Of a stretch of 64,000 nucleotides of DNA, positions 19,521 through 37,956 are shown one piece after another. A program made the translations under genes and the position numbers. Location: the NCBI RefSeq assembly GCF_014083945.1, contig NZ_CP046444.1, positions 2,170,001 to 2,234,000 on the forward strand, read 5' to 3'. Origin of the DNA: Granulicella sp. 5B5 (GTDB taxonomy: Bacteria; Acidobacteriota; Terriglobia; Terriglobales; Acidobacteriaceae). The notes below the pieces were generated by a model. The model was not told where the DNA came from, made no database searches, and saw only the letters and a program-made list of their open reading frames with translations. Numbering within the stretch: position 1 is the stretch's first letter; each line of letters starts with the position of its first letter.

Positions 19521-20585
19521 TTAGGCCAGGCCGGCGCGGTGGGTGTGGGCGGCGATGTGGTCGTTGATGTCCAGGGCGAGGGCCAGGGCGGCGCGGCCGG
19601 CTTCGCCGGAGACTCGTGGAGGGGTACGGTTCTTGATGGCTTGGAGGAAATCTTCGATTTCGAGGAGGAGGGGTTCGCCTTTGGGGATGTCGGCCTTGGT
19701 GAGGGAGAAGCCGGCGGTGGGGTGCGAAGGGTCGGGTGAAGCGGCTGAGGCCTGGGCGAAGAACTGCGCGGCGAGCTGGGGGTCGTCGGCGACGGCGGCG
19801 AGGCCGGCGACGAGGCGCGGGTCGACGTCGATGGAGAGCAACTCCTGGCGGGCGAAGTCGAGCGAGAGGTACTGGTGGGGCTGAAAGAGGCGGAGCTTGC
19901 GGACCTGCTCGGTGGAGATGCGGCTGGCGGTGAAGTTGGCGACGCAGCCGGATTCGAACTCGACACGGACGTTCGCGATGTCGGCCTTTTGGGAGAGGAT
20001 GGGGATGCCGACGGCGCGGACTTCGTAGACCGGCGAGTTGGTAAGCGAGAGGACGATGTCGAGGTCGTGGATCATGAGGTCGAGCACGACGTCGACGTCG
20101 AGTGAGCGCGGGGTGAAGATGCTGAGGCGGTGGGCCTCAAAGAACATGGGCTTGTTGAGCGCGGCGAGTGTGGCCGTGACCGCGGGGTTGAAGCGTTCTA
20201 AATGTCCAACCGCAAGTATGCGGTCGCGCTCTCGCGCGAGGGACAGCAGGTGATCGGCTTCGGCGAGCGTGGCGGCGAAGGGCTTTTCGATGAGGACGTC
20301 GATGCCTGAGAGCAGGAGCAGCTCGGCCACGGCGGCGTGATGGATGGTGGGCACGCAGACGGAGGCGGCGTCGAGCTGGAGGCCGGTGTCGAGGAGCTCG
20401 TTGACGGTGGCGAAGGCGGGGATGTTGTACTGGCTGGCGTAGAGGGTGCGGCGCTGCTCGTCAGTGTCGACGAAGGCTGCGAGCTGAACGAGGCCGGGGT
20501 GTGCGGCCTCGAGCTCGCGGTAGACACGGAGATGATTGCGCCCGAAGGCGCCTGTCCCGATGACGGCGACGCGTAGAGGGGGCAT
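19521..20585 (-). CDS. Gfo/Idh/MocA family NAD(P)-dependent oxidoreductase
   Basis: 354 residues. N-terminal Rossmann fold VAVIGTGAFGRNHLRVY (residues 5-21), conserved lysine motif VLIEKPFA near residue 120, and LDLMIHDLDIVLSL in the substrate domain. The MIHDLDI form is common in sugar-nucleotide oxidoreductases, for example the UDP-GlcNAc 3-dehydrogenase GnnA that modifies lipid A precursors, so a cell-envelope sugar role is possible; no partner aminotransferase is next to it. A 74-residue protein gene lies 2 bp upstream in the same operon. Confidence 0.85.
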   Translation of the reverse strand: MPPLRVAVIGTGAFGRNHLRVYRELEAAHPGLVQLAAFVDTDEQRRTLYASQYNIPAFATVNELLDTGLQLDAASVCVPTIHHAAVAELLLLSGIDVLIEKPFAATLAEADHLLSLARERDRILAVGHLERFNPAVTATLAALNKPMFFEAHRLSIFTPRSLDVDVVLDLMIHDLDIVLSLTNSPVYEVRAVGIPILSQKADIANVRVEFESGCVANFTASRISTEQVRKLRLFQPHQYLSLDFARQELLSIDVDPRLVAGLAAVADDPQLAAQFFAQASAASPDPSHPTAGFSLTKADIPKGEPLLLEIEDFLQAIKNRTPPRVSGEAGRAALALALDINDHIAAHTHRAGLA

Positions 20586-20587
20586 GG

Positions 20588-20812
20588 CTACTTGGCGGGT
20601 GCGGGTGTGGGGGACTCAACCGCGGTGCGGCAGCGGGCGTAGAGGTCGAAGATCTGGGCGACCTGGTCTTCGGTCTTCGCGGTGGAGGGAACGCCAAAGC
20701 CGGTGGTCGATGCGGCGGACTTGTTGCCGAGGTTGGCGTGCGAAGCGACGAACTTGAGGAGATCGAGAGCGATGTCTTCGGAGCGGCGTGTTGCGGAGTT
20801 GTTGGAGTCCAT
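20588..20812 (-). CDS. Small conserved-looking protein, function unknown
   Basis: 74 residues, first gene of a two-gene operon with the oxidoreductase (2-bp gap). Hydrophilic at both ends with a helical, mildly hydrophobic middle: SEDIALDLLKFVASHANLG and EDQVAQIFDLYARCRTAV. No signal peptide, membrane helix or known motif. ATG 20812 is the only good start. Tight coupling suggests a partner or regulator of the oxidoreductase. Confidence 0.65.
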   Translation of the reverse strand: MDSNNSATRRSEDIALDLLKFVASHANLGNKSAASTTGFGVPSTAKTEDQVAQIFDLYARCRTAVESPTPAPAK

Positions 20813-21473: not shown

Positions 21474-21499
21474 CCCATGTCCCAAAGTCGGGACATGGG
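21474..21499. repeat. Perfect hairpin repeat upstream of the fibre-like gene
   Basis: CCCATGTCCC (21474-21483) and GGGACATGGG (21490-21499) with loop AAAGTC. It looks like a REP-type extragenic palindrome, and it could also act as a terminator after the 20932 gene. Confidence 0.6.
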
Positions 21500-21553
21500 G
21501 CACCCAGCGTGCGGTGGATTTTGAAGATGAAGCGATGGACGCATGGAGGAGAG

Positions 21554-24691: not shown

Positions 24692-24737
24692 CTTCAGCGG
24701 GAAGGCTGAGGGTGTTGCAGTGCGGCGATAACGGCGT

Positions 24738-24770
24738 GGGCTCCCCTGATGGTTCAAGGGAGCCCGCAGC
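24738..24770 (+). terminator. Hairpin between fibre-like and terminase genes
   Basis: GGGCTCCC (24738-24745) / GGGAGCCC (24758-24765), 12-base loop, followed by GCAGCGTTT. Terminator-like, but with a weak T tract. Confidence 0.55.
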
Positions 24771-24795
24771 GTTTCGGGAAGGGTTGCATGGGGTA

Positions 24796-26298
24796 GTGAG
24801 AGTGGATGACGCATCCGTATTAAAAGAGTTGGGCCAGCTGATGGAGGGTGGTCCTGAAATAAGGATAGCCGTGGCTGCAGAGTTGCTGAGAATACGGCAT
24901 CGTGCGGGCAGTATCAGGCCCTTGATCGCCAACCCGGCCCAGCGCCGGTTTGAGCGGTGGAGCGGACGGCAGAACATCGTGTTGAAGGCCCGTCAGATGG
25001 GCATGACAACGTGGGTGGCCGCGAGGTTCTTTCTGCGGACGATCACGCGGCCTGGCACTGTGACGTTGCAGGTGGCGCATACGCGATCGGCGGCGGAGTC
25101 GATCTTTCGGATTGTGCAGCGGATGTGGGAGGAGTTGCCCGCTGATCTGCGCGAGGGCCCACTGCGCAGGAGCCGTGCGAATGTGGGACAGATGCTGTTC
25201 CCTCGCATCGATAGCGAGTTCCGGATTGCGAGCGCGAGCGATGAGGGTGTCGGCCGCGGGCTGACGATCCAGAACCTGCACTGCAGCGAGGTGAGCCGCT
25301 GGGCCGGAGATGCAGCGGAGACGCTGGCAGGTCTGCGCGCGGCCCTGGCGAAAGATGGCGAGATGGTGATGGAGAGCACGCCGAATGGAGCCTATGGGGC
25401 GTTCTACGACGAGTGGCGTACGGCGTCTGAGCCCGGTGGTAAGGGGGATGGCCTGGTGCGACACTTTCTGCCCTGGTGGCTGGAGCCTGCTTATTGTGGA
25501 GCTGCAGTCGATGCGTCGTCGTTGACGACCGAAGAGTGCGAGCTGGTTGCGAGGCACAGTTTGACGCTTGGGCAGATAAGTTTTCGCCGAGGCCTCGAGC
25601 GCAGTTATGGACAACTGCGCTCGCAGGAGTTTGCCGAGGATGCTGAGACATGCTTCCGGGTAAGCGGATCGTCGTGCTTTGATGTGCAAGCGGTTGAACG
25701 AAGGGTGCTGCAAGCCCCGGAACCGCGAGAGAGGCGTTCGAACGGGGCTTTGCAGATCTGGCTGCCGCCTATGCCAGGTAAGGACTACCTGCTGGCTGTC
25801 GATTCGTGCGGAGGCGGTGGGGAAGGTGATTATGCCGCGGTGCAGGTGCTCGAGGTGCAGACGGGGCTGCAGTGTGCGGAGCTGCAGCAGAGGCTGCGTC
25901 CTGCGGAGCTGGCGAGGGTCGCCGCGGAGGTTGCGCGTGAGTATAACGGTTCCGTGATCGTGGTGGAGAGGAACAACCATGGCGCGGCGGTGATTGCGTA
26001 TCTGCAGACGAACGAGCGGTATGAGCGGCTGTGGCATGATGGCAGCGAGGCCGGGTGGCTGACGAGCTCGGCGAGCAAGCCGGAGATGATTGCGCGGCTG
26101 GGGTCGTTGCTGGAGAGTGCGCCGGAGATGTTCATGAGCCGTCGCCTGCTGGGCGAGTGCAGGACGTTTGTGTCGAATGAACGCGGCGGCAGTGGAGCAG
26201 CGAGTGGGGCGCACGACGACCTGGTGATGGCGATGGCCATTGGGCAGGCTGTACGTGCGCGGATGCTGGAGAGCGGCGGGCGCGGCAGGAGCAGGTGA
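24796..26298 (+). CDS. Phage terminase large subunit (packaging ATPase/nuclease)
   Basis: About 500 residues. The ATPase domain shows RQNIVLKARQMGMTTWVA, a Walker A variant as in many terminases, LQVAHTRSAAESIF, and IQNLHCSEVSRW as the Walker B/coupling region, followed by MESTPNGAYGAFYDEW. The nuclease domain begins with YLLAVDSCGGGGEGDYAAVQV (first metal Asp) and ends with SGAHDDLVMAMAIG (last metal Asp pair). Both catalytic halves therefore look intact. Start is uncertain: GTG 24796, GTG 24802 and TTG 24784 are all in frame, with GGGAAGGG at 24776. No small terminase gene is adjacent. Confidence 0.85.
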   Translation: MRVDDASVLKELGQLMEGGPEIRIAVAAELLRIRHRAGSIRPLIANPAQRRFERWSGRQNIVLKARQMGMTTWVAARFFLRTITRPGTVTLQVAHTRSAAESIFRIVQRMWEELPADLREGPLRRSRANVGQMLFPRIDSEFRIASASDEGVGRGLTIQNLHCSEVSRWAGDAAETLAGLRAALAKDGEMVMESTPNGAYGAFYDEWRTASEPGGKGDGLVRHFLPWWLEPAYCGAAVDASSLTTEECELVARHSLTLGQISFRRGLERSYGQLRSQEFAEDAETCFRVSGSSCFDVQAVERRVLQAPEPRERRSNGALQIWLPPMPGKDYLLAVDSCGGGGEGDYAAVQVLEVQTGLQCAELQQRLRPAELARVAAEVAREYNGSVIVVERNNHGAAVIAYLQTNERYERLWHDGSEAGWLTSSASKPEMIARLGSLLESAPEMFMSRRLLGECRTFVSNERGGSGAASGAHDDLVMAMAIGQAVRARMLESGGRGRSR

Positions 26299-26351
26299 AC
26301 TGTCGTCCATGCAAGCCGCCGTGAACTGCGGTAAGGTTTGCATGGAGGCAG

Positions 26352-27221
26352 GTGCACTTGGCAGTCATGGCGGTACAGGCAATTCGACCGATGCGGGGTG
26401 GAGCGCAGAGCCAGTTGATGCTCGGCGGCGACGGCAAGCTGTGGGTGGTGAAGTTCAAGAACAACCCACAGCATCTGCGTGTGCTGGCGAATGAGCTGAT
26501 TGCGACGCGGATCGCGGAGGCGGTTGGGCTGTCGGTGCCGAAGACGGATGTGGTGGAGGTGAGTGAGTGGCTGATCGAGCACTCGCCCGGCATGATGGTG
26601 AGTGGAGAGCGCGGCGGCCGCGTGCGCTGCGAGCCGGGGCTGCAGTTCGGCAGCCAGTTTGTGGGCGGGCTGATGCCGGGGCAGGTGGTGGATTATCTGC
26701 CGGAGTCGCAGCTGGATGAGGTGCGTAACCTTGCCGAGTTCGCAGGCATGCTGGCCGTGGACAAGTGGACCGGCAACTGCAATGGAAGGCAGGCGGTGTA
26801 TGAACGCAAGCCGCGTGAGAAGCGCTATCGCGCGGTGTTCGTGGACCAGGGCTACTGCTTCAACGTGGGCGACTGGAGCTTCCCGGACTCGCCGCTGCGT
26901 GGGGTGTTTCCGCGCAACCTGGTGTATCGGCAGGTGACGGGATGGAAGAGCTTTGAGCCGTGGCTGGGACGGATCGAGTCGTTCCCGGCGGAGGCGCTGT
27001 GGCAGATCGCCGAGGAGGTGCCGCCGGAGTGGTATGGCGGCGACACGCGGGTGATCGAGGGCCTGATGGAGACGCTGCTGAAGCGGCGAGAGCGGGTACG
27101 GGACCTGATCACGCAGTTTCGGCGCTCGGACAGAGAACCGTTCCCGAAATGGGGCGCGGTGGAGGGTGTCTACGAGACAACGGGCCAGCAACAGCCGCAG
27201 GTGGGCGGATTTATCATGTAG
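26352..27221 (+). CDS. HipA-like kinase domain protein (HipA_2 type)
   Basis: 289 residues from GTG 26352; ATG 26367 is an alternative. LWVVKFKNNPQHLRVLANELIATRIAE looks like the nucleotide-binding lysine and following helix of a HipA-like kinase (K-F then the conserved Glu). LAVDKWTGNCNGRQ corresponds to the catalytic loop (D-x-W-x-x-N-x-N-x-R), and VFVDQGYCFN to the metal-binding Asp. It is shorter than HipA toxins and lacks a HipB partner; this group is usually found with a DUF3037 protein, which is present here two genes on. Cargo between the terminase and portal genes. Confidence 0.75.
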   Translation: MHLAVMAVQAIRPMRGGAQSQLMLGGDGKLWVVKFKNNPQHLRVLANELIATRIAEAVGLSVPKTDVVEVSEWLIEHSPGMMVSGERGGRVRCEPGLQFGSQFVGGLMPGQVVDYLPESQLDEVRNLAEFAGMLAVDKWTGNCNGRQAVYERKPREKRYRAVFVDQGYCFNVGDWSFPDSPLRGVFPRNLVYRQVTGWKSFEPWLGRIESFPAEALWQIAEEVPPEWYGGDTRVIEGLMETLLKRRERVRDLITQFRRSDREPFPKWGAVEGVYETTGQQQPQVGGFIM

Positions 27222-27267
27222 CCTCGCAGAGGCTGATGCGGGCTGGGCGGGAGGATGCGTGCAAGGG

Positions 27268-28251
27268 ATGGCGATGCAGGAGATCGGGACGGGGCTGTGG
27301 GTTGAGCGGCTGCACGAGCTCTGGCAGCAGGCGGTTGAGGGTGGACCCTCCCTGCCGTGGGACCTGCAGGGCACCCTGCTTTGCGGCCTGGAGTTGAACC
27401 ACCTGGAGACACTGCGGTACCTGCACCAGGAACGCCCTTCGTTCGAGGCGTTTAAGGCTTGGGTGTTTGCGCTGAATGGGGAGTATCTGACGGAGGCTGC
27501 ACTTGAGCATTTGGATGCGGCGCTGAGCGAAGCGGAGGTCGCGTCGCCGATTGGGAGTTTGGATGATGTGTCGGGGCTGAGTGAGGATGATCTCTCCCAC
27601 TGGGATGAGCATGGGTATGTGGTGGTGAAGCAGGTTGTGAGTGCGGAAGACGCAGAGGCGGCCGAGCTTGCGATCTACGCGCACCTTGAGATGGACCGCG
27701 ACGATCCAGAGAGCTGGTACTCGGAGAAGCTGGGGCACACGATCTGGGTGCCGCTGCTGCGGCATCCGGTGGTGCGCGCGAACCGCTTTGCACCGCGGGT
27801 GGTGAAGGCGTTCGCGCAGTTGTGGGGGCGGGAAGATCTGTGGGCGACGGTGGACCAGACCGGGCTCAACCCGCCGGAGCGGCCGGGGTGGAGGTTTCCG
27901 GGGCCGCATCTGCACTGGGACACTACGCTGGCGGAGCCTCGGTATCTTGGGATTCAGGGCATCCTGTATCTGGCTGAGACCGAGGCGGCGCAGGGGGCGT
28001 TCTGCTGTGTGCCGGGGTTTCATAAACAGCTTGATGCTTGGCTGGAGGCGCTGCCGCAAGGGGTCGATCCGCGGGCTGAGGCGCTGCGGACGTTGAAGGC
28101 GAAGCCGATCGCGGCAGGGCGCGGCGATCTGGTACTGTGGCACCAGTCGTTGCCGCATGGCAGCAGCCCGAACCGGGCGACGCGGCCACGCGTGGTGCAG
28201 TATATGTCGATGCGGCCGACGAAGTGGGCGTACAACGCGGAGTGGAGGTAG
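27268..28251 (+). CDS. Phytanoyl-CoA dioxygenase (PhyH)-like Fe(II)/2-oxoglutarate oxygenase
   Basis: About 327 residues; ATG 27268 chosen, with GTG 27259 and ATG 27274 also possible. The first 90 residues are helical and unlike PhyH. Then LSHWDEHGYVVVKQVVS starts the PhyH domain. Iron ligands: HLHWDTT (HxD near residue 218) and the distal His in VLWHQSLPHGSSPN near 294; the 2-oxoglutarate Arg is expected in NRATRPRVVQYM. GAFCCVPGFHK is typical. It oxidises an unknown substrate. Sits between the HipA-like kinase and DUF3037 genes (6 bp from the latter) as a cargo operon inside the virion cluster. Confidence 0.8.
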   Translation: MAMQEIGTGLWVERLHELWQQAVEGGPSLPWDLQGTLLCGLELNHLETLRYLHQERPSFEAFKAWVFALNGEYLTEAALEHLDAALSEAEVASPIGSLDDVSGLSEDDLSHWDEHGYVVVKQVVSAEDAEAAELAIYAHLEMDRDDPESWYSEKLGHTIWVPLLRHPVVRANRFAPRVVKAFAQLWGREDLWATVDQTGLNPPERPGWRFPGPHLHWDTTLAEPRYLGIQGILYLAETEAAQGAFCCVPGFHKQLDAWLEALPQGVDPRAEALRTLKAKPIAAGRGDLVLWHQSLPHGSSPNRATRPRVVQYMSMRPTKWAYNAEWR

Positions 28252-28257
28252 AGGGCC

Positions 28258-29079
28258 GTGCCGGAGCGATTGCAATGCGAGTTCTCGCTGGTGCGCTATG
28301 TGCCGGATGTGGTGAAGGGTGAGTTTGCCAACATCGGTGTGCTGCTGCGTGCGCCGGGACCTGAAGGCTTGGTGACGGTGCGGTTCACACGCGACTGGAG
28401 CCGCGTGCGCTGCATCGACCCAGGCGCGGATGTCGCGATGCTGGAATCGCTGGAGGAGGAGATTACGCAGCGGCTGCATGGCGGCGTAGAGCTGAAGGTG
28501 AATGCGAAGCCGGTGCTCGAGACGCTGGAGGATACGCTCTCGAACAGTGTGCAGCTGACCGAGATGCGCGGTACGCTCGCGGAGAGCGTGCCGGCGGAGA
28601 TGGAGCAGCTGCTGCGGATGTATGTGGAGCCGCTGAAGGCTGAGGGTGGACGGCGCAAGGTGAGTGGACGTGCGACGATTGCGGCCGAGTTGAGGACGGC
28701 GTTTGAGCGTGCAGGTGTGTGGCGGCTGATGCGCAAGCGGATCGCGGCTTCGCAATATACGCAGGCGGGTGATCCGCTGAAGCTCGACTGCGGGTATCGC
28801 AATGGGCGCGTGAGGATGTTCCAGGCGGTGTCGCTAGGGAACGATGTGGAGGGCGCGAAGGGCCTGGCGTACTCGGCTGCGGCGCTGCGCGAGGGCGTTG
28901 CGCGCGTGGAGGGCGCGGAGCTGGAGCTGACCGCGGTGGTGGAACGGATTTCAACTGTCAGTGAAGAGGAGCAGTACCGCTTTGGCGTGAGTGTGATGGA
29001 GCGGGAGGCGATTCGGGTGCTGACGGTCGCGGACCTCGGGCGGGTTGCCGAGACAGCGAAGCGGGAGTTGCACGTGTAG
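28258..29079 (+). CDS. DUF3037 family protein
   Basis: 273 residues from GTG 28258 with GGAGGTAGAGG just upstream. The N-terminal segment FSLVRYVPDVVKGEFANIGVLL is the hallmark of DUF3037 (a short YVPD...G.F.N.GV motif). The rest is helical with LRMYVEPLK and FERAGVWRLMRKRI. DUF3037 genes commonly accompany HipA-like kinases, so this may be a regulator, antitoxin or substrate of the protein at 26352; that is an inference from neighbourhood. A strong terminator follows, closing the three-gene cargo. Confidence 0.78.
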   Translation: MPERLQCEFSLVRYVPDVVKGEFANIGVLLRAPGPEGLVTVRFTRDWSRVRCIDPGADVAMLESLEEEITQRLHGGVELKVNAKPVLETLEDTLSNSVQLTEMRGTLAESVPAEMEQLLRMYVEPLKAEGGRRKVSGRATIAAELRTAFERAGVWRLMRKRIAASQYTQAGDPLKLDCGYRNGRVRMFQAVSLGNDVEGAKGLAYSAAALREGVARVEGAELELTAVVERISTVSEEEQYRFGVSVMEREAIRVLTVADLGRVAETAKRELHV

Positions 29080-29102
29080 TCCAACCGAAGACTAGAGACT
29101 GC

Positions 29103-29136
29103 AGGGCGTGGCCAATGGCCGCGCCCTTTGCTTTTG
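29103..29136 (+). terminator. Intrinsic terminator between cargo operon and portal
   Basis: AGGGCG-TGGCC (29103-29113) / GGCC-G-CGCCCT (29117-29127) with an AAT loop, then TTTGCTTTT. The portal ribosome site follows at once. Confidence 0.75.
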
Positions 29137-29147
29137 GAGGCGAAGGG

Positions 29148-30389
29148 ATGGGTTTGGGAACGGTAGTGAAACAGATGTGGGAGCGGATGACCGATGTGGA
29201 GGCTGCGGCCGACGATGTTGGGAGTCGTAAGACGCTGGCCGCGCCGCTGGGGCTGAACTCGATCTTTGCTCCATTTCGTGGCAGCGGTGTGCAGCATCAG
29301 TTGCCCAAGCCGACGGCTGCCAACCTGCGGCGGTTTGCGGAGACGCCGGCGGCGCGGCGGGCGATCAACTGCATCAAGGACAAGATCGCGTGCATGGAGT
29401 GGCGCATCGAAGCGCGTCCCGGCTTGCCGGAGGATCCAAACGGCGACCGCGAGCTTCGCGCGGCGGCGTTGATGCGGTCGTTCGAGACGCCCAACGATAC
29501 GGATAGCTTTCGCACGCTGATTGAGCAGGTGATCGAGGACACGCTGATTGGTGGCTTTGGCGCCGCGGAGGTCGAGATCACGGGAGACGATGCGGCGCCG
29601 GTGCGGCTGTATCCAGTGGATGGCGCGACGATCCAGGTGAACTCGTTCTGGGATGGCGATCCGGGCAATCCTCGTTATGCACAGCTGACCTCGCGTCCGG
29701 GTAGCGAAAAGCTGATCCCGCTGCGGGACGATCAGCTGATGTACGTGAAGCTGAATCCTCGCACGCATACGGTGTTTGGCCTGGGCAAGATGGAGGTCGC
29801 GTTCGAGTCCATCACGCAGTTTCTGCAGAGCCATCGCTATGCGGCGCGGCTGGCTTCGAACAGCGTAGTGCAGTATGCGCTGTGGCTGAATAAGCGCACG
29901 CCGGAGCAGCATGAACGGCTCATTCGCTGGTGGCAGGATGAGGTTGAGGGGACAGGGCGCGTGCCGGTGCTCAGCTCGGAGCAGAAGCCCGAGGTGCTGC
30001 GATTTGCAGGTGGCACGGATGCGGACCTGCGGCTGCAGTGGCAGGAGTTTCTGCTGACGATGATTGCGAATGCGTTCGATCTGCCGTCGATGCTGCTGGG
30101 TGTGACGCAGAATGTGAACCGCTCGACGGCGCAGGAGCTTGCCAACGAGGCGTTTCAGAACGCGGTTGTGCCGCTGGCGAAGCTGATAGCGGAGCACCTG
30201 ACGCGCGATGTGATCGCGAAACGGCTGGGGTGGAACGATCTGCGTTTTGTGTGGAGCGAACTTGGCAGCCGCGATGAGCAGGTGGAGCTCAGCATGCAGC
30301 TGGATCTACTGAAGGCCGGGGTGATCTCCGTTGCTGAAGTACGGTCACAGCGTGGGCTGCCGGCGGTCGCGGAACCAGCGGCGCTCTAA
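29148..30389 (+). CDS. Phage portal protein
   Basis: 413 residues from ATG 29148, with GGAGG at 29136-29140. Features of HK97/SPP1-like portals: AINCIKDKIACMEWRIE near residue 75, DTLIGGFGAAEVE, DQLMYVKLNPRTHTVFGLGKMEVA (wing), FLLTMIANAFDLPSMLLG and STAQELANEAFQNAVVPLAK (crown/stem). It forms the dodecameric DNA channel at one capsid vertex. It is followed by the protease and scaffold-like genes in the usual order, although the cargo genes separate it from the terminase. Confidence 0.88.
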   Translation: MGLGTVVKQMWERMTDVEAAADDVGSRKTLAAPLGLNSIFAPFRGSGVQHQLPKPTAANLRRFAETPAARRAINCIKDKIACMEWRIEARPGLPEDPNGDRELRAAALMRSFETPNDTDSFRTLIEQVIEDTLIGGFGAAEVEITGDDAAPVRLYPVDGATIQVNSFWDGDPGNPRYAQLTSRPGSEKLIPLRDDQLMYVKLNPRTHTVFGLGKMEVAFESITQFLQSHRYAARLASNSVVQYALWLNKRTPEQHERLIRWWQDEVEGTGRVPVLSSEQKPEVLRFAGGTDADLRLQWQEFLLTMIANAFDLPSMLLGVTQNVNRSTAQELANEAFQNAVVPLAKLIAEHLTRDVIAKRLGWNDLRFVWSELGSRDEQVELSMQLDLLKAGVISVAEVRSQRGLPAVAEPAAL

Positions 30390-30428
30390 GAGTTTGCAAA
30401 GGTGTGGTCAGAGAAGAAGGAGGCATGC

Positions 30429-31133
30429 GTGAAGGAAGCAGTGCGGTCGGACCCTGCGTCGAGGAGCCGTTCAGGCCTGGACGTGGGTGGAAGAGTGCGT
30501 CGGCGCTGTAACGGTCGCGAGTTGCGTGCGATGGCGGTGGAGTTTCCTGATGTTGCAGGTCACCCCAACCGGCTTCCGTTTGAGGGCTGCCTGACGCTGG
30601 TGGATGTGCCGAGCGACAAGGCGCCCAGCGGCTCGCGCGGGCACCGCGTTGTGTTGACGCGTGAGGCCGCGGAGGCTGCGATGCCGAGCCTGCTCGGCAT
30701 GGCGGTGGACTACAAGGCAGGCTGGGACGGCCATGATGCACGCCAGAAGTGCGGCATCATCACGGCTGCTCATCTGGAAGGGAAGAAGCTGCTGGTGCGG
30801 GGATATCTCTTTGCGCGGGACTTTCCTGAGTTTAGAGGGCCCGAGTTCAGAGGGCCGGAGTTCGACCGTAGCCAGCTTCATCGCACGGAGGCGTTGACGG
30901 GGGGCTTGAGCGCAGAGGCCCCTACGACGATGGGCATGAGCTACGAACTGGCGGATGCGCACGTTGCCGACATGCGCGCGCCGGTCTGGACGCTGACGCG
31001 GGCCACGTTCACCGGTGCTGCCATTCTGCTGCGTGAGAAGGCAGCGTACAGGGCGACTTCGTTTCATGTTCGGCGCGGCGGCGCTCGAAGCGCAGTGCAT
31101 CGCGCTTCAAGGGTGGCTGCGATGCCGGTGTGA
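30429..31133 (+). CDS. Putative prohead/capsid maturation protease
   Basis: 234 residues from GTG 30429 (GGAGG just upstream). Identified by position between portal and scaffold and by a weak protease pattern: a candidate His in GWDGHDARQKCG, then TMGMSYELADAHV with a candidate Ser, and LTRATFTGAAILLREKAAY, a C-terminal pattern seen in capsid proteases. Residues around 135-150 contain the duplicated block EFRGPEFRGPEFDR, arising from a tandem repeat of about 15 bp. The extreme C-terminus is basic (RRGGARSAVHRASR). Not a confident family match. Confidence 0.55.
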   Translation: MKEAVRSDPASRSRSGLDVGGRVRRRCNGRELRAMAVEFPDVAGHPNRLPFEGCLTLVDVPSDKAPSGSRGHRVVLTREAAEAAMPSLLGMAVDYKAGWDGHDARQKCGIITAAHLEGKKLLVRGYLFARDFPEFRGPEFRGPEFDRSQLHRTEALTGGLSAEAPTTMGMSYELADAHVADMRAPVWTLTRATFTGAAILLREKAAYRATSFHVRRGGARSAVHRASRVAAMPV

Positions 31134-31166
31134 GCGAACGATGTCTCAACAGAAGAGGAGAGTTCG

Positions 31167-31622
31167 ATGAAGGAGAAGACCATGTTGGAGTTGACGGAGA
31201 CGATGGAGCGGCTGGAGGCAGTGGCCGAGGCGCTGGAGCAGGCAGCGGAGCGGATCGCAGAGCAGCAGGTGGCGCTTGCTGCGGAGGCGCAGCAGTCGGT
31301 GGGGCGCATTGTTGCGACCGTGGAGACCGCGCGCGAGGCTGAGCTGGAGCGCCGGCTTGCCGAGGCGGAGGGCCAGATTGCGAGTGCTGAACGGAAGATT
31401 GCCGAGTTGACTGCTGCGGCTGCCTCTCCTGTTGTACAAGGCCGCGTGACGCTGCCTGCGGGGATGGCGACGATGCTCGCGAAGCAGGGTGTCGCTCTTG
31501 ATGCCGGTGGGAGCTTTCCGTCGATGGAGAGCAGCGCGATTGATGGCGCGTTGGCGAGCCTGAGCATCGAGCAGCGCATCGCGGTGAAGTCGGAGCTGCT
31601 ACGCGCCGGGCTGATGAGCTAA
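31167..31622 (+). CDS. Coiled-coil protein, probable scaffold
   Basis: 151 residues, AGAGGAG ribosome site before ATG 31167. Residues 5-90 are almost pure heptad-type helix, rich in Ala, Glu and Gln (TMERLEAVAEALEQAAERIA), and the C-terminal third (LSIEQRIAVKSELLRAGLMS) could bind the capsid protein. Size, composition and location directly before the major capsid gene fit an assembly scaffold. No enzymatic motif. Confidence 0.6.
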   Translation: MKEKTMLELTETMERLEAVAEALEQAAERIAEQQVALAAEAQQSVGRIVATVETAREAELERRLAEAEGQIASAERKIAELTAAAASPVVQGRVTLPAGMATMLAKQGVALDAGGSFPSMESSAIDGALASLSIEQRIAVKSELLRAGLMS

Positions 31623-31661
31623 CTCCGCAACGCAAACGCAACGATGCGGTCTTGCCGTTGA

Positions 31662-31689
31662 AGGCACAGCAGAGCGCTGTGCCTTTTCA
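31662..31689 (+). terminator. Intrinsic terminator before the capsid gene
   Basis: Perfect 10-bp stem AAGGCACAGC (31662-31671) / GCTGTGCCTT (31677-31686), five-base loop, then TT. Confidence 0.75.
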
Positions 31690-31737
31690 TTGCGAGGCCG
31701 CCAACAGAGATGTCTGCACCAACACGAGGAGATACGA

Positions 31738-32709
31738 ATGAACCCGAAGTTTACTGAGATCAGCGCGGCAGCGGATTACATCGGCCCCGGCGCCATTGAA
31801 GTGCCCTTGTACCAGACCGAGATCCTGGACCTGGTACGCCGCCGCGGCCCGCTGGGCCAGCGCATCAAGCAGGTGCCCGCGACCGGACATCCCTCGCGCT
31901 TCTTCGAAGAGACGGCGATCCCGTCGCCTGCTGCGTCGGCAGGTTTTGTCGACCCGCGCAACATCGTTGCGCCGCTTGTGCAGCCCACGCGCGTGGAGCA
32001 CAGCGTGCCGCTGAAGGCGCTGGTTGCGCAGATCAACTACAACCTGTTCGATATCGAGCTGGGCAAGCAGCAGAGCCAGTTCGCGTATCTGCAGGCGAAG
32101 GACCTGACCGACACGGTCGATGGCGTTCTGCGCACGCATGACATCGCGTTGTGGAATGGCACGGACACCAGCCTGAGCTCGCCGACGACGGCGCAGTACT
32201 TCGGCATCGCCGGGCAGATTGCCGCGGGCGGCAACTCGGTCAGCATCGGCACCAGCGAGTCGATCGTCGATGGCTTGAAGTCGACCATCGCGCAGATGCT
32301 GTCGAACACCAGCTTTGGCGTGCGCCCCACGGCCATCTATGCGAACCCGGTGCTGCTTGACCTGATCGACCGCGAGATGAAGGCGGAGTTCAATGTGGTA
32401 CTGAACACCAAGCCAATAGAAGGCGGACTGACAGTGAAAACGCTGAGCACGCAGGCCGGCGACATTCCGCTGATCCCGGAGTGGACGCTGCCGTATACAG
32501 GGACCCCGGGCTCGGGTTCGGCTGTGCTGCCTGCGTATATCGTCACCGAAGACCTGATCGAGTACCACTGGCTCGGCGATCCCAACCCGCGCGTCTTCCA
32601 GCTTGGTCTGCCCGGCTCGCTGGCAAGCAAGTATGGGGTGGTCAAGTTCGGTGCGCCGGTGGTCAAGGGCGCCAACTACGCGCACTACCAGGTGCTGGTC
32701 GACCGCTAA
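31738..32709 (+). CDS. Major capsid protein (HK97-fold, SU10-like)
   Basis: 323 residues from ATG 31738. The N-arm starts FTEISAAADYIGPG. RVEHSVPLKALVAQINYNLF and the long helix LQAKDLTDTVDGVLRTHDIALWNG belong to the spine/A-domain region. TSFGVRPTAIYANPVLLDLID and IEYHWLGDPNPRVFQLGLPG are typical of SU10-type coat proteins. No N-terminal delta domain is evident, consistent with a separate scaffold gene. Hairpins flank the gene on both sides (31662 and 32734), so it may be transcribed as its own unit. Confidence 0.85.
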   Translation: MNPKFTEISAAADYIGPGAIEVPLYQTEILDLVRRRGPLGQRIKQVPATGHPSRFFEETAIPSPAASAGFVDPRNIVAPLVQPTRVEHSVPLKALVAQINYNLFDIELGKQQSQFAYLQAKDLTDTVDGVLRTHDIALWNGTDTSLSSPTTAQYFGIAGQIAAGGNSVSIGTSESIVDGLKSTIAQMLSNTSFGVRPTAIYANPVLLDLIDREMKAEFNVVLNTKPIEGGLTVKTLSTQAGDIPLIPEWTLPYTGTPGSGSAVLPAYIVTEDLIEYHWLGDPNPRVFQLGLPGSLASKYGVVKFGAPVVKGANYAHYQVLVDR

Positions 32710-32733
32710 TCCGCGTCGCAGTCAGCTATGCAG

Positions 32734-32765
32734 CGCAGCGGAGAGTGTCCCTCTCCGCTGCGTTG
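32734..32765 (+). terminator. Intrinsic terminator after the capsid gene
   Basis: Perfect 12-bp stem CGCAGCGGAGAG (32734-32745) / CTCTCCGCTGCG (32751-32762) with loop TGTCC, followed by TTG. Confidence 0.7.
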
Positions 32766-32810
32766 TAACCACTCCCGCAACAATGGGCCGCAGGGCAACA
32801 GGAGAGACGA

Positions 32811-33443
32811 ATGGGATACTTACAGCCCGCAGATTACGCGGCATTTGGGCTGAGCGCCGACACCGCCGATGCGTGGGTCACGGCAGCCTCGGCGATGATG
32901 GAGGCCTACTGCAGGCGGCCCTCGCTGCTCGCAGCCAGTTATACCGAGCGGATGCGTGTGCCACTGCGTGCGCAGACAGTGCGCCTCAGCTACACGCCGC
33001 TCATCAGCGTGGATGCTGTACAGGCGCAGTATGCGCGGCCGCGCTTCGGCGATGAATTCGATGGCGACATGTACGGTGGTTATGGCCCTGGTTTGCTCGC
33101 TGGGCCCTACCTCGCGGCGTTTGCAGCGCCTAACCAATGGGTGCCGGTTGATACCTCAACGCTCGATATCAGCCTGCCTACAGGTGAGTTCCGTTTTGCC
33201 TGGAACATGATGGGGCTGCGTTATGCCTATGCGGAGGTCACTTATACGGCAGGGCTCAACACTGTGCCCGATGCCGTGAAGGTGGCGTGCGCGCAGATCG
33301 TCAAGAACGCACAGGCTACGCCGGGACTCAATGTGAAGTCAAGCCGCATGGACACGCTGCAGACGCAGTATTTCAGCGACTCGCTTCTCGATAGTCAGGT
33401 GCAGGCCATCCTTCGGCCTTATGTGGCAGAGAGGTTGGGATGA
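32811..33443 (+). CDS. Phage head-tail connector protein
   Basis: 210 residues from ATG 32811 with GGAGAGACGA upstream. ADAWVTAASAMMEAYCRRP is the helical start of gp6-like connectors (a domain that contacts the portal). AYAEVTYTAGLNTVPDAVKVACAQIVKNA is the diagnostic beta strand plus helix of the family. It forms a ring under the portal. The stop overlaps the ATG of the next gene (33440-33443). Confidence 0.78.
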   Translation: MGYLQPADYAAFGLSADTADAWVTAASAMMEAYCRRPSLLAASYTERMRVPLRAQTVRLSYTPLISVDAVQAQYARPRFGDEFDGDMYGGYGPGLLAGPYLAAFAAPNQWVPVDTSTLDISLPTGEFRFAWNMMGLRYAYAEVTYTAGLNTVPDAVKVACAQIVKNAQATPGLNVKSSRMDTLQTQYFSDSLLDSQVQAILRPYVAERLG

Positions 33444-33847
33444 CCATGCCTGATATCTCTCAAGGCCCGCCGAATGGCCCAATGCGCATCGCGCAGACGT
33501 CGTTGCGAACGGGGAGTGGTTGCGCCGCGCTGTTGCGCATGCCGGGTCTTGCAGCCTCCGGCGATGATGCCGAGCAGCTAGGGCTGGCAACGCCGCAGTT
33601 TCAAGAGCTCTCGCTGGGGCCGGTGGCCTTCCACAAGGCCAACAACAACACACGGCTTATGGTTTCGGCTGCTGCTGTGCTTGCGCTGGTGCAGAGCTTC
33701 GCCTACGACTCCGCGGACGTGCTGTTTCAGTCCGCTGCCGGAGTGCTGATCGAAGGGGTGTTCTACCTGATCACGAACTGCGTGGCCGCTGAGGCGATGG
33801 ACAAGCCCTACTGCTATTGGTTGACGCTGCAGCCGCCAGCTCGATGA
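33440..33847 (+). CDS. Phage neck / head-closure-like protein
   Basis: 135 residues, ATG 33440 overlapping the connector stop (ATGA). The N-terminal 40 residues are Gly/Pro-rich; the rest is beta-rich (FQELSLGPVAFHKANNNTRL, GVLIEGVFYLITN). Assigned by position and size between connector and tail-completion genes; I see no diagnostic motif. Confidence 0.5.
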   Translation: MTMPDISQGPPNGPMRIAQTSLRTGSGCAALLRMPGLAASGDDAEQLGLATPQFQELSLGPVAFHKANNNTRLMVSAAAVLALVQSFAYDSADVLFQSAAGVLIEGVFYLITNCVAAEAMDKPYCYWLTLQPPAR

Positions 33848-33881
33848 CGCTTACTCGCGGTGTTCAAGACTGGGGGATGAT

Positions 33882-34388
33882 GTGCAGAACGCAAAGGACA
33901 CGTTCTACGAAGTGTTGCGCAACCGGATAGCGGCATTGAATCCGGGCCGCACAACGGTGGTGCGCGGCATCACGCGGCCGGCGATTCTGGTGGAAGAAAA
34001 CGAGCTTCCTACGGAGTTTCATCTGCCTGACTGCTTCCGGGTTCGCTGGTTGCAGATGAGCGCAGATGCCAATGGGTGTATGCCATTGATGATGTTGCCG
34101 TGCGCCATCGAATACGAGACGCCGGGTACGTCAGCCAACGGGGGTATGGATCGAGGGCGCACGCTGGCCGCGCTGGATGGCGAGCTGCTCGCGGTGCTGA
34201 ACCAGTGGCCGCAGAGCGCGCAGAAGAACAACTACACTCCGCTGTCCAATGGCCAGCCTGCCGCACCGATGGCAGCTAACATCTGGTGGGGCGAGCCCGC
34301 TTTTGGAGCGATTGAGGTGAAGCAGGACCGGCTCGCCCGCACCGTGACGGTGGTGGTCATGAGCTATCAGGAGGCAGGTGAACTGTGA
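33882..34388 (+). CDS. Phage tail-completion-like protein
   Basis: 168 residues from GTG 33882. The start DTFYEVLRNRIAALNPGRTTVVRG and the middle MLPCAIEYETPGTS look like proteins that cap the neck, and MDRGRTLAALDGELLAVLNQ is a conserved-looking helix. FGAIEVKQDRLARTVTVVVMS gives terminal beta strands. The assignment rests mainly on order. Its TGA overlaps the GTG of the next gene (34385-34388). Confidence 0.5.
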   Translation: MQNAKDTFYEVLRNRIAALNPGRTTVVRGITRPAILVEENELPTEFHLPDCFRVRWLQMSADANGCMPLMMLPCAIEYETPGTSANGGMDRGRTLAALDGELLAVLNQWPQSAQKNNYTPLSNGQPAAPMAANIWWGEPAFGAIEVKQDRLARTVTVVVMSYQEAGEL

Positions 34389-35329
34389 GTGATTCGATTG
34401 AGACGATGCCGCCGCTTGTGCGCCGGGTGCGTGCATATTTTGCGCCGGTGAATCGTGTTGCACATCAGCCAACTATCTTCGATCCGGCACAGATGGGGCT
34501 GTTTGCGTTCAGCGCACCGCCGGCCCCGTGGATCGACCTGGGCTGGATCACCAAGTTCGCAAGACACAGCGGGACAAAAGTGCTGCCGGTAAGGATGGGC
34601 GCTCCTGCGACAACCTACTTGCAGGCACGGACCGAGGTGGAGGCGACTGTCGGCCTGAACTTTGAAAGCTGGGGTAAGCTGCAGCTTTCTCTCTCGTGCG
34701 GAACGCAGCAGTTGAACCTGTTGCATCCTGCGGCTGGCGCAACCGCCGAAGGCTCAGGAGCCGCTGCTGTATCTGCGGTCGCAATCGAGAGCGGTTCCAC
34801 GGCGAGCGTGCTGCAGGTTGGTACGGCAGCGGCAGCGGCGTTCACTGTAGGTCAGTGGGTTGCCGTTGATGTCGATTGCTCAGGGCAGACGGGCTACCTC
34901 GGTAGCGGAGTCAGCGGTGCGTATGTCAGAACCGCGCTCACGGACGTCGACTATGTTCGTCGCATCACGCTCAACGTTTCGCAGATTACCGCGATTGCCA
35001 ATGGCGCGCTCACGCTGCGCACTGCGCTGCTCGCGGGTGTTCCCACGTCTGCGATGAAGGCGAGCCCCGTTGTCGGCTTCTGTGACCGTGAGGGCTCGAG
35101 CTTCTTCCAGGAGTGGTCCGCGCTCTTCGTCGGCGAAGGCCAGCAGGGAGAGCGTGTGCTGTGGCACTACCCACGCCTGCAGGCGCTCAGTGGTGCTGCC
35201 GAAACCAACGTCGCATCAAGTGGAGGGTACGAAAAAGTGGCGCTAGGCGCTGCATTTCGGGCACTCCCGGTGAAGGACCCCGTTGACGGTGAGACGGTGG
35301 TCTGCTTCCGCAGCTACGTCATCGCGTAA
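34385..35329 (+). CDS. Putative major tail tube / virion structural protein
   Basis: 314 residues from GTG 34385, coupled to the gene before. Beta-rich, with an N-terminal YFAPVNRVAHQPTIFDPAQ and a central Ala/Ser/Thr-rich segment (SGAAAVSAVAIESGSTAS) like an inserted domain. EVEATVGLNFESWGKLQLSL resembles strands of tube proteins. The next gene starts 15 bp further on, so there is no room for the chaperone and tape-measure genes that normally follow the tube gene. Confidence 0.5.
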   Translation: MSDSIETMPPLVRRVRAYFAPVNRVAHQPTIFDPAQMGLFAFSAPPAPWIDLGWITKFARHSGTKVLPVRMGAPATTYLQARTEVEATVGLNFESWGKLQLSLSCGTQQLNLLHPAAGATAEGSGAAAVSAVAIESGSTASVLQVGTAAAAAFTVGQWVAVDVDCSGQTGYLGSGVSGAYVRTALTDVDYVRRITLNVSQITAIANGALTLRTALLAGVPTSAMKASPVVGFCDREGSSFFQEWSALFVGEGQQGERVLWHYPRLQALSGAAETNVASSGGYEKVALGAAFRALPVKDPVDGETVVCFRSYVIA

Positions 35330-35344
35330 CGACAAGGAGAGACG

Positions 35345-37717
35345 GTGCTCATAACGATCGACAATTTGGATGGACATGGCCCGGTCGACTACACCGGTTC
35401 CATCGCTCCGGAGGGACCCATCACGGTGCAGCGTGCGCTGAATAAGCCCTCGCGTTGCACGGTGGAGATCGTCGTCGGCGCGGAGGGATTGCCTTTGCCT
35501 GCGCGCCGCGGACGGGTCACAGTTACAACGCAGGCGGGGACTGCGCTCTTCACGGGTTATCTCGCGACAGAGCCGGTGCAGATATACGCTGGCACGGCCT
35601 CGATGGGCCCTGTCTATCGCGCACGGCTCTCGGCCGTGAGCGATGAGTGGCTGCTCGACAACCTGGGCTCTGGCGGCACTGTGTATGACGCAACATCGCT
35701 TGGGCTCAGCGGAGAAGCGCTGCTTGCGATTCTCGCGGCTCGTGTTCCCGGCGCTCCTGCGTTGCCGGTCAGCGCCGGCGTAGGTACTGTGCAGGCCATC
35801 GGCTCCTTCACGCCCGGCAAGGCAAGCTCCTGGAGTGAGAATGCCGCGCTCGCTGCGAGTGCAGCCTATGCGGGCTATCGCGCTCTCAACGGGGAGTTGC
35901 TGCTGCAGCCCGCAGGGGCAACAGTCCATGACTTCAGTGATGCCGACGGCACACTCTCAGTCGCCGAGCTGCAGACGAGTGCTGTGCGTGAGCTTGCCAA
36001 TGACGTTACGATCACCGGCGCGGGAGAGCCCGCAGCTTATATCGGCGAGCAGTTCATGGGTGATGGCACGACCACTATCTTCGAACTTCGCGAATCGGCC
36101 TTCCGTCCGACGCAACGGACGTTGCTGCGCGATAGCTTCAACGAGCCCGCATTCGACGTAACGCAGTGGACCGTGGCCGATCCTGGCAGCCACTTCTCGC
36201 TTACAGGCGCTGGGCTTACGATGAACGGCGGCAACGGCAACGATGGGCAGACCGTCATCAGCGCGCTCGATGCTGTCGAGATGGGTGGCGCGATCGTTGC
36301 GCAGCTTGGAGGCGTTCTCTTCGGTGCGGCTTCGGACGGCATGCTCGCTTGCATGTATGAAGGAACGCCTGTGCTGGCCAACTGCTTCGCAGGTTTTCGT
36401 GTGCGGCAGAACGCGGGCAACACGGTTGTCGTTCCTGTTGTGAATGGTGTTGAGGTTGGAACGGTGTTCACGCCCATTGCGGGCCACAGCTACACACTGC
36501 GTCTCCGGTTGCATTGTGTGGAGATGCAGCGCGTGATGCAGCCTTACTACTGCATGGTCGATGGTGTTGTGCAGCGCTTTGGTAGCGCCAGTGGCGTCAC
36601 CGCGCCGATGGATCTTGTCTTCGAGCTCGTCGATGAAGGCACTGCTTCGAACACACCGGCTACTGTGCTCTACGATAGTTTCGCTGTCGGCGGAACGGTT
36701 GTCAGCTCGCCGGCCACTTGTGCGTTTGTTCTCGCCAACGCGACGCAGCTCTTTGGGTCGATTGCATCGGTCAGCGTCACGCGGCCGGGCATTATGTGGG
36801 TGGTCAGCACGTTGCCGAGTGGCACACTACAGACACGCCTGATTGGTGTTGCGGGGCAGGGAGTGGATTGCACCGCGACCTACGGCTCGCAGACAGGCAC
36901 GCCCGGCAAAATCACGTTCTTCGCTGGCCGGGTGCCTGTCGCCGGTGAGCGGATCACTGTCTACTACCGCAACCAGCGTCGCTCGGTAGCGCGGCTTGCA
37001 AGCGCGTCGAGCATTGCGAGTGAGTCCTCATCCAATGCGCCGGGCACCAGCCGCTGGCTTGGCGAAGTCCTGCAGCCCGTTGCGCGCAGTACTGCGGACT
37101 GTGAGGCTGCAGCCCAGGCAGTGCTGGCGTTTGCTACCAGCCGGTCTGCAGCTCTAGCGGGAAGTTATACAGCTATCAATCCCACGCAGGACATCTGGCC
37201 AGGCGATGTGCTTGCTATCACCAGCAACGGCGTCACAACGCAGCTGCTGGTCCGCGGTGTTGTTGCCAAGGACTGTGGCGCGCAACCCGAGGTCATCGAG
37301 TATCGCATTGCCTTCGCCAACGATTGGGCCACCGAGTGGGCCGATGGAATAGGTCTCAGGTTGAGCGAGCGTATTGCTGCCAACGCGTGGTTTCCATCTA
37401 TTGCCGCTTCTGCACCGGGGCAGGTGCTTGCGAATCTGCAACAGCTCACGGTGACGAACCTTACCACTTCTGTACTGCAAATTGATACAGGCACAACGCC
37501 ACCGGCGGGTGGCGGGTTCGAGATCAGGCGCAGAGACTGGCTGTTCGGGGCCGGTGTCGACGCAGCCGACCTCGTTATGCGGAGCCCAGTGCGTTCGTTC
37601 TCCATTCCACGCGCGAGCCAACTTGAACAGTATTTTGTCCGCATGTACGACGCGAGCACGCCTCCCGTCTACTCGCGATTTTCCAGTGTTGTGTTCACGA
37701 ATGCTCCAGTGAGCTGA
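35345..37717 (+). CDS. Large virion tail/hub protein
   Basis: 790 residues from GTG 35345. The N-terminal 200 residues (LITIDNLDGHGPVDYTGSIA, RRGRVTVTTQAGTALFTGYL) look like a hub/baseplate domain. A region at about 260-450 (LLRDSFNEPAFDVTQWTVAD onwards) has the layout of a concanavalin-like lectin domain. A return to hub-like sequence with LASASSIASESSSNAPG and INPTQDIWPGDVLAIT follows, then a C-terminal domain. So it appears to be a tail hub carrying an inserted carbohydrate-binding module for host recognition. Confidence 0.6.
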   Translation: MLITIDNLDGHGPVDYTGSIAPEGPITVQRALNKPSRCTVEIVVGAEGLPLPARRGRVTVTTQAGTALFTGYLATEPVQIYAGTASMGPVYRARLSAVSDEWLLDNLGSGGTVYDATSLGLSGEALLAILAARVPGAPALPVSAGVGTVQAIGSFTPGKASSWSENAALAASAAYAGYRALNGELLLQPAGATVHDFSDADGTLSVAELQTSAVRELANDVTITGAGEPAAYIGEQFMGDGTTTIFELRESAFRPTQRTLLRDSFNEPAFDVTQWTVADPGSHFSLTGAGLTMNGGNGNDGQTVISALDAVEMGGAIVAQLGGVLFGAASDGMLACMYEGTPVLANCFAGFRVRQNAGNTVVVPVVNGVEVGTVFTPIAGHSYTLRLRLHCVEMQRVMQPYYCMVDGVVQRFGSASGVTAPMDLVFELVDEGTASNTPATVLYDSFAVGGTVVSSPATCAFVLANATQLFGSIASVSVTRPGIMWVVSTLPSGTLQTRLIGVAGQGVDCTATYGSQTGTPGKITFFAGRVPVAGERITVYYRNQRRSVARLASASSIASESSSNAPGTSRWLGEVLQPVARSTADCEAAAQAVLAFATSRSAALAGSYTAINPTQDIWPGDVLAITSNGVTTQLLVRGVVAKDCGAQPEVIEYRIAFANDWATEWADGIGLRLSERIAANAWFPSIAASAPGQVLANLQQLTVTNLTTSVLQIDTGTTPPAGGGFEIRRRDWLFGAGVDAADLVMRSPVRSFSIPRASQLEQYFVRMYDASTPPVYSRFSSVVFTNAPVS

Positions 37718-37734
37718 GAAGGGCAGGGGAAGGT

Positions 37735-37956
37735 ATGACGGATTTTGAGAGTCAGGTGTTGCAGGAGCTTAGTGCGCTAAAAGCGCAGATGCAACATCTC
37801 ATGGGGATTGGGCAACCGGGCAGGCTGAACCAGCTGGAAGCGCGCGTAGAAGCCCATGAGCGCAGTGTGCAGCAGTTGAAGGGGTTGGGTGCGGCCTTCG
37901 GCGCGGTCCTCACGGTTGTGCATGTGGTGATTGCATACTGGACCGAGCGGCATTAG
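37735..37956 (+). CDS. Small holin-like / XhlA-like membrane protein
   Basis: 73 residues, GGGGAAGG before ATG 37735. A coiled coil at residues 1-48 (LQELSALKAQMQHLM, LEARVEAHERSVQQL) is followed by one membrane helix GLGAAFGAVLTVVHVVIAYW and a short polar tail. This is the architecture of XhlA-type hemolysins and small holins in phage lysis cassettes. It is the last gene of the virion cluster and no endolysin lies beside it; the nearest is at 44618. Confidence 0.65.
   Translation: MTDFESQVLQELSALKAQMQHLMGIGQPGRLNQLEARVEAHERSVQQLKGLGAAFGAVLTVVHVVIAYWTERH

Follow-up and report, generated by a model that had tools for sequence, protein, structure and literature searches.

A putative HipAD-type defense pair in the terminase–portal gap of an inherited virion locus of Acidobacteriaceae

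Why should a protein kinase gene, an oxygenase gene and a gene of the DUF3037 family stand between the terminase and the portal gene of a virion cluster? We met this arrangement in a 64-kb window (the whole stretch of DNA analyzed, whose coordinates are used below) of the closed 3.93-Mb genome of Granulicella sp. 5B5. Here, five intact open reading frames (ORFs) follow one another in the order terminase large subunit (TerL), HipA_2 kinase, PhyH-like oxygenase, DUF3037 protein and portal. A first-pass annotation had named these genes and their order correctly, as our profile matches confirmed, and had read the middle three as cargo interrupting an otherwise normal phage. Comparison with relatives leads us to a different answer: it is reasonably probable that kinase and DUF3037 form a toxin–antitoxin defense pair of the HipAD (PDC-M66/DS-6) type, vertically inherited in the terminase–portal gap of a virion locus that derives from a phage and is retained by most of the Acidobacteriaceae sampled, in many genera at one site, with the PhyH gene as a recent insertion and the function taken from studied homologs. 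Direct support comes from family membership, catalytic residues, a predicted kinase fold, gene position, purifying selection, a recurrent hairpin and the occurrence of the pair without virion genes.

To begin with position, we searched 150 Acidobacteriaceae genomes with each protein and obtained matches to DUF3037 in 102, to the kinase in 109, to the portal in 91 and to PhyH in seven. Leaving out three weak portal matches, 88 portal genomes remained, and 80 of these carried DUF3037 (within 5 kb) and the kinase (within 8 kb) upstream of the portal on the same contig and strand. Across the 80 linked genomes, the DUF3037–portal gap measured 39–1431 bp, and the kinase–DUF3037 gap was at most 512 bp in 77, 970 bp in G147 and ~1,050 bp in both the window genome and G140. 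The exceptions include G089, with pair and portal both at contig ends; G081 and G122, with a partial DUF3037 upstream of the portal and no kinase match; G080 and G087, with a portal fragment at the contig start (G087 without any pair match); and G008, with the pair on a different contig from the portal. In G147, a second, partial DUF3037 (L118:8480-8851) lies between the kinase and the full-length DUF3037, apparently a tandem duplication.

Loci from named genomes gave the same picture. Among the best 80 of 224, 63 showed the full terminase–kinase–DUF3037–portal order with at least 3.5 kb upstream, and the pair was present in all 64 that have at least this much upstream sequence. Of the 16 shorter loci, four lacked the pair; their upstream sequence amounts to less than 10 bases in three and to 2 kb in the fourth (L353). 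Bryocella, Granulicella, Edaphobacter and Terracidiphilus, all Acidobacteriaceae, are among the relatives that the portal search recovered; two of the 80 loci (L286 and L315, from environmental genome assemblies) are labeled as other phyla. In genus g35, a group of loci (L101, L103, L218, L219, L242–L247 and L249–L253) has a block ending in a 314-aa ORF upstream of the spike-like ORF, not downstream of the portal, and these rearranged loci still keep the pair between terminase and portal. The supposition that terminase and portal are normally adjacent is hence untrue in this lineage, where the pair separates the two in nearly every relative examined, and the notion of cargo interrupting a normal phage fails with it: the pair is a standing arrangement (80 of 88 genomes; 64 of 64 loci) and, as described below, persists without virion genes. 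A chance insertion, to be recognized by relatives whose terminase directly adjoins the portal, is likewise contradicted for the pair; for PhyH, the same comparison speaks for an insertion. HipA_2 and DUF3037, which the earlier remark has as a common pair, are direct neighbors in 78 of the 80 linked genomes, and PhyH intervenes in the other two (the window genome and G140).

The locus as a whole appears to have traveled with its hosts. Many genera share its host borders: to the left a GFO/IDH oxidoreductase gene with a small ORF, to the right a 2-oxoacid dehydrogenase E2 gene. Of the 31 genomes in which MutS2 and the portal share a contig, 17 encode MutS2 15–23 kb downstream of the portal in the same orientation; the remaining 14 have it at a greater distance, upstream or inverted, so this neighborhood is not universal. 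With MutS2 as host marker, its distances among 21 genomes correlated with those of the portal (Mantel r 0.861) and of the kinase (r 0.699), with 0 of 2000 permutations as high in either case. In a phylum-wide sample of 396 genomes, strong portal matches occurred only in Acidobacteriaceae (36 genomes), three others being weak. The median ratios of non-synonymous to synonymous substitution rates (dN/dS) in genus g35 were 0.059 for the kinase, 0.109 for DUF3037, 0.133 for the terminase, 0.082 for the portal and 0.077 for a tail-like ORF, next to 0.065 for host E2; in the window's own genus, g1, where dS is high, they were 0.176 for the kinase and 0.159 for DUF3037, next to 0.134 for host E2. Judged by these sequence comparisons, the locus behaves as an inherited, prophage-derived one under purifying selection, and it is possibly akin to a gene transfer agent (GTA). 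We rejected a mobile prophage carrying cargo, because the locus tracks its host and shares a common site in many genera.

The pair also occurs where virion genes do not. In an order-level survey of 200 genomes, the portal matched strongly in 131, and so did DUF3037 in 130 of these, all but G243, whose portal is fragmented. DUF3037 without a strong portal match was seen in 17 further genomes of the family, four of which (G015, G054, G135 and G241) have a weak one. Five g1 genomes (G196, G206, G216, G222 and G242) gave no portal match and carry kinase and DUF3037 beside the same small left-border ORF, with E2 on the other side in four of the five; in G206, the gaps flanking the pair are ~155 and ~230 bp. 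The pair likewise stands without virion genes, in some cases with other host genes between, in genus g51 and in the g32 genomes G116, G128, G148 and G248; G116 also has a further pair, which is linked to virion genes, on a contig of 3.6 kb.

The g1 genomes with the pair alone fall into two separate clades in the tree of the pair as well as in that of the host flanks, and the MutS2 tree places those of g32 beside a virion-bearing congener. Since the host-flank tree matches the pair tree poorly and its outgroups fall among g1 genomes, we relied on the MutS2 tree and on the two pair-only clades. Virion genes thus appear to have been lost from around the pair in at least three lineages (two g1 clades and g32) and probably in four or more: the grouping of g51 with virion-bearing G023 and of G113 with G018 would make four or five losses, on a MutS2 tree that is midpoint-rooted and was read without support values. 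Alternatively, the whole site may have been exchanged by recombination. Where the pair stands without virion genes in g32, its rate of evolution is as low as that of a host gene (dN/dS 0.045 for HipA and 0.066 for DUF3037, compared with 0.055 for the host GFO/IDH gene; three pairs each). Taken at the level of gene content, the pair seems to be the more durable part of the locus, often outliving the virion cluster.

What, then, is the pair? Kinase and DUF3037 match both PADLOC models of PDC-M66 (Table 1), while PhyH matched none of the PADLOC models, and on this basis the two would belong to the HipAD/DS-6/PDC-M66 type of defense pair. Residues K34, D137, N142 and D165 of the kinase are invariant in 24 aligned sequences including that of the window, and we take them to have the catalytic roles of their HipA counterparts. 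The kinase model (mean predicted local distance difference test score, pLDDT, 73) resembles CtkA (Z 13.4), HipT (Z 10.6) and HipA (Z 10.5), and also PI4K-II. In the DUF3037 model (pLDDT 87), the C-terminal half looks restriction-endonuclease-like with a best Z of 9.0, which is weak and near the usual background, and Foldseek returned no match for this model at E 0.001. Sequence searches of the PDB with kinase, DUF3037 and PhyH gave nothing useful. Neither a HipB-like neighbor nor a Couple_hipA domain was present among the locus proteins scanned; the genome's only Couple_hipA domain lies at 3384348-3384662 (3.38 Mb), away from the locus. In genus g51 we observed an expansion of HipA_2-like kinases, with nine kinase matches and one DUF3037 match on several contigs of G134.

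A combination of HipA-like kinase and DUF3037 has been proposed as a toxin–antitoxin system (PMC12548924, PMC13092281). In the experiments reported there on homologous pairs, deleting the kinase abolished defense and deleting DUF3037 was toxic (PMC12548924), and a catalytic kinase mutant was defense-negative (PMC13092281). These reports, together with the PDC-M66 matches, support a defense or toxin–antitoxin type for kinase and DUF3037, in line with the earlier guess of a defense module. By analogy, DUF3037, the presumed antitoxin or sensor, would bind and restrain the kinase; an infecting phage, or strong expression of phage genes, would disturb DUF3037 and free the kinase, which would then phosphorylate a host target, stopping growth and limiting phage spread. 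Neutralization, trigger, target and defense are all carried over from the homologs, and in this sense we infer that the pair may act as an abortive-infection module.

A hairpin with a T-run follows DUF3037 at 29103-29127, its tail reaching ~29137 and its stem comprising 11 pairs. Terminator-like sites in the region were as frequent as in shuffles (3 observed, 3.0 expected), so it is stem length and recurrence in relatives that speak for a terminator: in 15 of 21 genomes, the DUF3037–portal gap holds a hairpin plus T-run that was equaled in no more than 1 of 40 base shuffles. The pair therefore probably has its own transcript end. A scan of the region for sigma-70-type promoters found none, a result of little information in this phylum. 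The terminator previously placed at 29103-29136 accordingly stands as a recurring hairpin with T-run, not as an excess over chance. The portal most likely starts at 29148 rather than 29115, as the latter falls within the hairpin.

Several observations weigh against reading the pair as an inherited host defense system. DUF3037 distances follow those of MutS2 less closely than the portal's do (r 0.425, 0 of 2000 permutations as high), and the virion genes of g1 are less constrained than in g35, their medians starting at 0.118 (presumed capsid) and reaching 0.337, above the 0.134 of host E2. In the closed genome G032, 3.7 Mb separate the pair from the virion genes; in G051, an assembly of 590 contigs, the portal match is split and the pair gave no match. 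Kinase and DUF3037 are on separate contigs in G054 and G135 and 42 kb apart in G108, which is odd for an obligate toxin–antitoxin pair. The DUF3037 protein has no DUF1829 match in Pfam at E 0.1, unlike DS-6B; DUF1829 is not stated as required for PDC-M66. Lastly, virion loci without the pair are nearly absent, which a purely host-serving defense does not predict.

Among other explanations, the one that fares best concerns origin and is compatible with defense: the pair could represent superinfection-immunity genes of the ancestral phage, which came with the virion genes and were kept after these decayed. We regard this as possible, if on the unlikely side. A precedent exists in five Gratiaviridae phages, which are reported to encode a HipA-family kinase between portal and major capsid that is read as superinfection immunity (PMC8008677). 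PHROG families exist for both proteins, and of the 23 IMG/VR contigs recovered by kinase alignment (the portal search yielded one locus, DUF3037 alone none), 22 have the order TerL–HipA–DUF3037–portal and the 23rd ends inside the kinase. These contigs are no proof of a free virus, because a reading of the ORFs, made with no family scan, suggests genes of other phages next to the locus in two of the longer ones; host E2 was found in none of the 23, a search that had no positive control and is uninformative on virus versus chromosome. One IMG/VR record (L254–L256, 55.8 kb) has the virion locus beside genes resembling those of a Mu-like phage, again from ORFs read without a family scan. Against a phage origin, 50,697 phage records gave no tblastn hit to either kinase or DUF3037 at E 1e-3.

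Further evidence against it comes from loci outside the family. A portal match occurred in none of the 14 sister-family genomes with DUF3037, and of ten more distant DUF3037 loci, seven have an adjacent kinase and none has a portal or phosphatase within the stretch fetched, in agreement with a pair that predates the virion cluster. A dual-specificity phosphatase gene, confirmed as PF00782 in the three loci scanned, is present in 12 of 148 loci. In the sister-family loci L213 and L214, which have HipA and DUF3037 and no virion gene, and in most g51 loci, the kinase follows it directly or at a short distance; in L125 other genes separate it from the kinase, and in L137 it stands beside a kinase without DUF3037. 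In the virion-bearing G023, G018, G032 and L329, its place is on the far side of the terminase or of the spike-like ORF. Kinase, phosphatase and antitoxin possibly form a module in the sister family and in g51. The simplest history would have a host phosphatase–kinase–DUF3037 module first, with virion genes arriving later on both sides; an early gain of virion genes followed by loss in the sister family may also account for these loci.

If the pair is rather a servant of the virion locus, the kinase–DUF3037 switch would gate particle production or packaging as the control module of a GTA-like element, and the locus would be kept only with the pair. We consider this unlikely. It would explain the place between terminase and portal, the retention of DUF3037 in 130 of 131 strong-portal genomes and the purifying selection on the four virion genes measured in g35; it sits poorly with at least three lineages that retain the pair and have no virion genes, the pair of g32 being strongly selected, and with the terminator-like hairpin that divides pair from portal in 15 of 21 genomes. 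Just as doubtful to us is a more far-reaching proposal, by which the defense pair is the obligatory core of a family-wide, domesticated GTA-like virion locus, a switch or safety device for particle production next to which alone, or almost so, virion genes are retained; the locus would then have formed around a pre-existing host phosphatase–kinase–DUF3037 module. Plain addiction, with the pair lacking a defense role and persisting since losing DUF3037 first is lethal, strikes us as quite improbable. The toxicity of a DUF3037 deletion in the homologous system (PMC12548924) and the persistence of the pair without virion genes are what one would then see; yet the pair can be lost, as the g1 genomes G205, G214 and G236 have neither a portal nor a DUF3037 match.

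The heritable HipAD-type pair that we favor leaves PhyH to be explained. The intact gene lies between the pair in three genomes, G000 (the window genome), G140 and G224, all of genus g1, that is, in 3 of the 12 g1 loci examined (it is absent from the other nine) and in 2 of the 80 linked family genomes; L314 has a truncated remnant in the kinase–DUF3037 gap, and a homolog lies far from the pair in G032 and on another contig in G074. Residues H217-x-D219, H298 and R309 are invariant in 5 of 5 sequences; presumably the two histidines and the aspartate are iron ligands and R309 is the 2-oxoglutarate arginine. Its median dN/dS in g1, 0.358 (three pairs, 0.22–0.39), is the highest measured there, near those of the tail-like ORF (0.337) and the portal (0.329). 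From its distribution, PhyH looks like a recent, separate and lineage-specific insertion. A single three-gene fitness or defense cargo, suggested by three consecutive genes on one strand ending at a terminator-like hairpin, is very improbable and was rejected on this same distribution of PhyH. The first-pass interpretation thus keeps its defense-type pair and its recognition of PhyH as unusual in that place, and loses the unity of the trio as well as the interrupted phage.

Around these genes, we scanned the 16 ORFs of the cluster (20902-37956) against Pfam and PHROGs, ten of which had no informative match (Table 1). Terminase, portal and adaptor were recognized among head and tail parts, the capsid is a presumed one, and no tape measure, integrase or replication gene was recognized among the 16. 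Virion ORFs right of the portal other than the adaptor had no convincing family match and are named by place and conservation. The presumed capsid (31690-32709) matched no Pfam or PHROG family and is the most conserved protein of the element that we measured (69-90% identity to 14 relatives). Three starts (26352, 26358 or 26367) are conceivable for the kinase, and most relatives begin at the equivalent of 26358.

Table 1 Features of the virion locus, its host borders and the phosphatase genes of related loci.
Feature	Coordinates	Strand	Evidence or remark
Left host border: GFO/IDH/MocA oxidoreductase and small conserved ORF	19521..20812	-	PF01408 1e-26; syntenic in relatives
Long tail-spike/fiber-like ORF, 1091 aa	21416..24691	+	Left of terminase in many relatives; putative function from size and place, no family match
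Terminase large subunit (TerL), left virion block	24796..26298	+	PHROG 2 E 3e-26; Terminase_6C E 3e-6
HipA_2-family protein kinase, 289 aa	26352..27221	+	Pfam HipA_2 PF20613 E 8e-8; PHROG 3162 3e-12; PADLOC PDC-M66A 1e-7
PhyH-like Fe(II)/2-oxoglutarate oxygenase	27268..28251	+	PF05721 E 4e-15, 57 bits (cut-off 22)
DUF3037 protein, 273 aa	28258..29079	+	PF11236 E 3e-24; PADLOC PDC-M66B 1.6e-14
Terminator-like hairpin	29103..29137	+	11-bp stem, loop 3, T-run
Portal protein, right virion block	29148..30389 (listed ORF from 29115)	+	PF04860 E 9e-47
Rest of virion cluster	30402..37956	+	243-aa ORF, 151-aa ORF, 339-aa presumed capsid, head-tail adaptor, small ORFs, 314-aa ORF, 790-aa tail-like ORF, 73-aa ORF
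Head-tail adaptor	32811-33443	+	PHROG 442 6e-17
Right host border: 2-oxoacid (pyruvate dehydrogenase-type) dehydrogenase E2	39449..41065	-	PF00198 1.5e-82; syntenic in relatives
Phosphatase in related loci	L213:7806-8363, L123:8669-9127, L117:18668-19105		PF00782

In the window, an alpha-amylase gene lies between the virion cluster and host E2. A phage-type lysozyme gene (44618-45061; PF00959 1e-49), ~7 kb past the virion cluster among host genes, could serve particle release. Separately, a SocA/Panacea-type antitoxin gene (42079-42956; PF13274 7e-20) and a small unmatched ORF downstream of it are low in GC content at third codon positions relative to most neighbors, and are possibly a recently acquired toxin–antitoxin pair.

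These findings tie an anti-phage pair whose description is recent to an old virion locus that is passed on by inheritance in a family common among soil bacteria. Should the locus make particles, Acidobacteriota would have in it a candidate gene transfer agent centered on a kinase module; should it make none, a defense pair would still have persisted several times where the surrounding phage genes are gone. Both outcomes can be tested in culturable strains.

Gene transfer agents such as RcGTA are vertically inherited virion gene clusters under selection. The Acidobacteriaceae locus shares these traits and has no detected integrase, and differs in being known from its genes alone (neither particles nor packaged host DNA) and in having no recognized tape measure. 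Classical HipBA resembles the pair in the HipA-like kinase fold predicted by our model and is unlike it in that a HipB-like neighbor and Couple_hipA were absent among the proteins scanned here. With HipAD/DS-6/PDC-M66, the pair has in common the same two protein families, adjacent in most relatives, and conserved catalytic residues; unlike those systems, it sits inside a vertically inherited virion locus, is split by PhyH in the window and lacks a DUF1829 match. The gut phages of the Gratiaviridae, as reported, likewise have a HipA-family kinase among head genes, there with an ATPase and a glycosyltransferase rather than DUF3037, and in phages rather than an inherited locus (PMC8008677). The virion locus itself is in print as acidobacterial "prophage cluster 153" (Eichorst et al. 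2018; PMC5900883, Fig. 3B legend). By scaffold name and interval, the cluster's entries KBS 89 scaffold00005 60-90 kb and Terracidiphilus gabretensis LAIJ01000009 700-740 kb contain our loci L287 and L352, respectively. The account given with that cluster presents prophages of a new viral group and does not mention a kinase pair, a common site or vertical inheritance (PMC5900883). Our searches of the open-access literature on acidobacterial GTAs and domesticated prophages, on DUF3037 with HipA, HipAD or PDC-M66, and on HipA with terminase and portal turned up no account of the pair as a fixed part of such a locus. Set against these systems, the defense pair is of a known kind and its setting appears to be new; a late insertion splits it in Granulicella sp. 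5B5.

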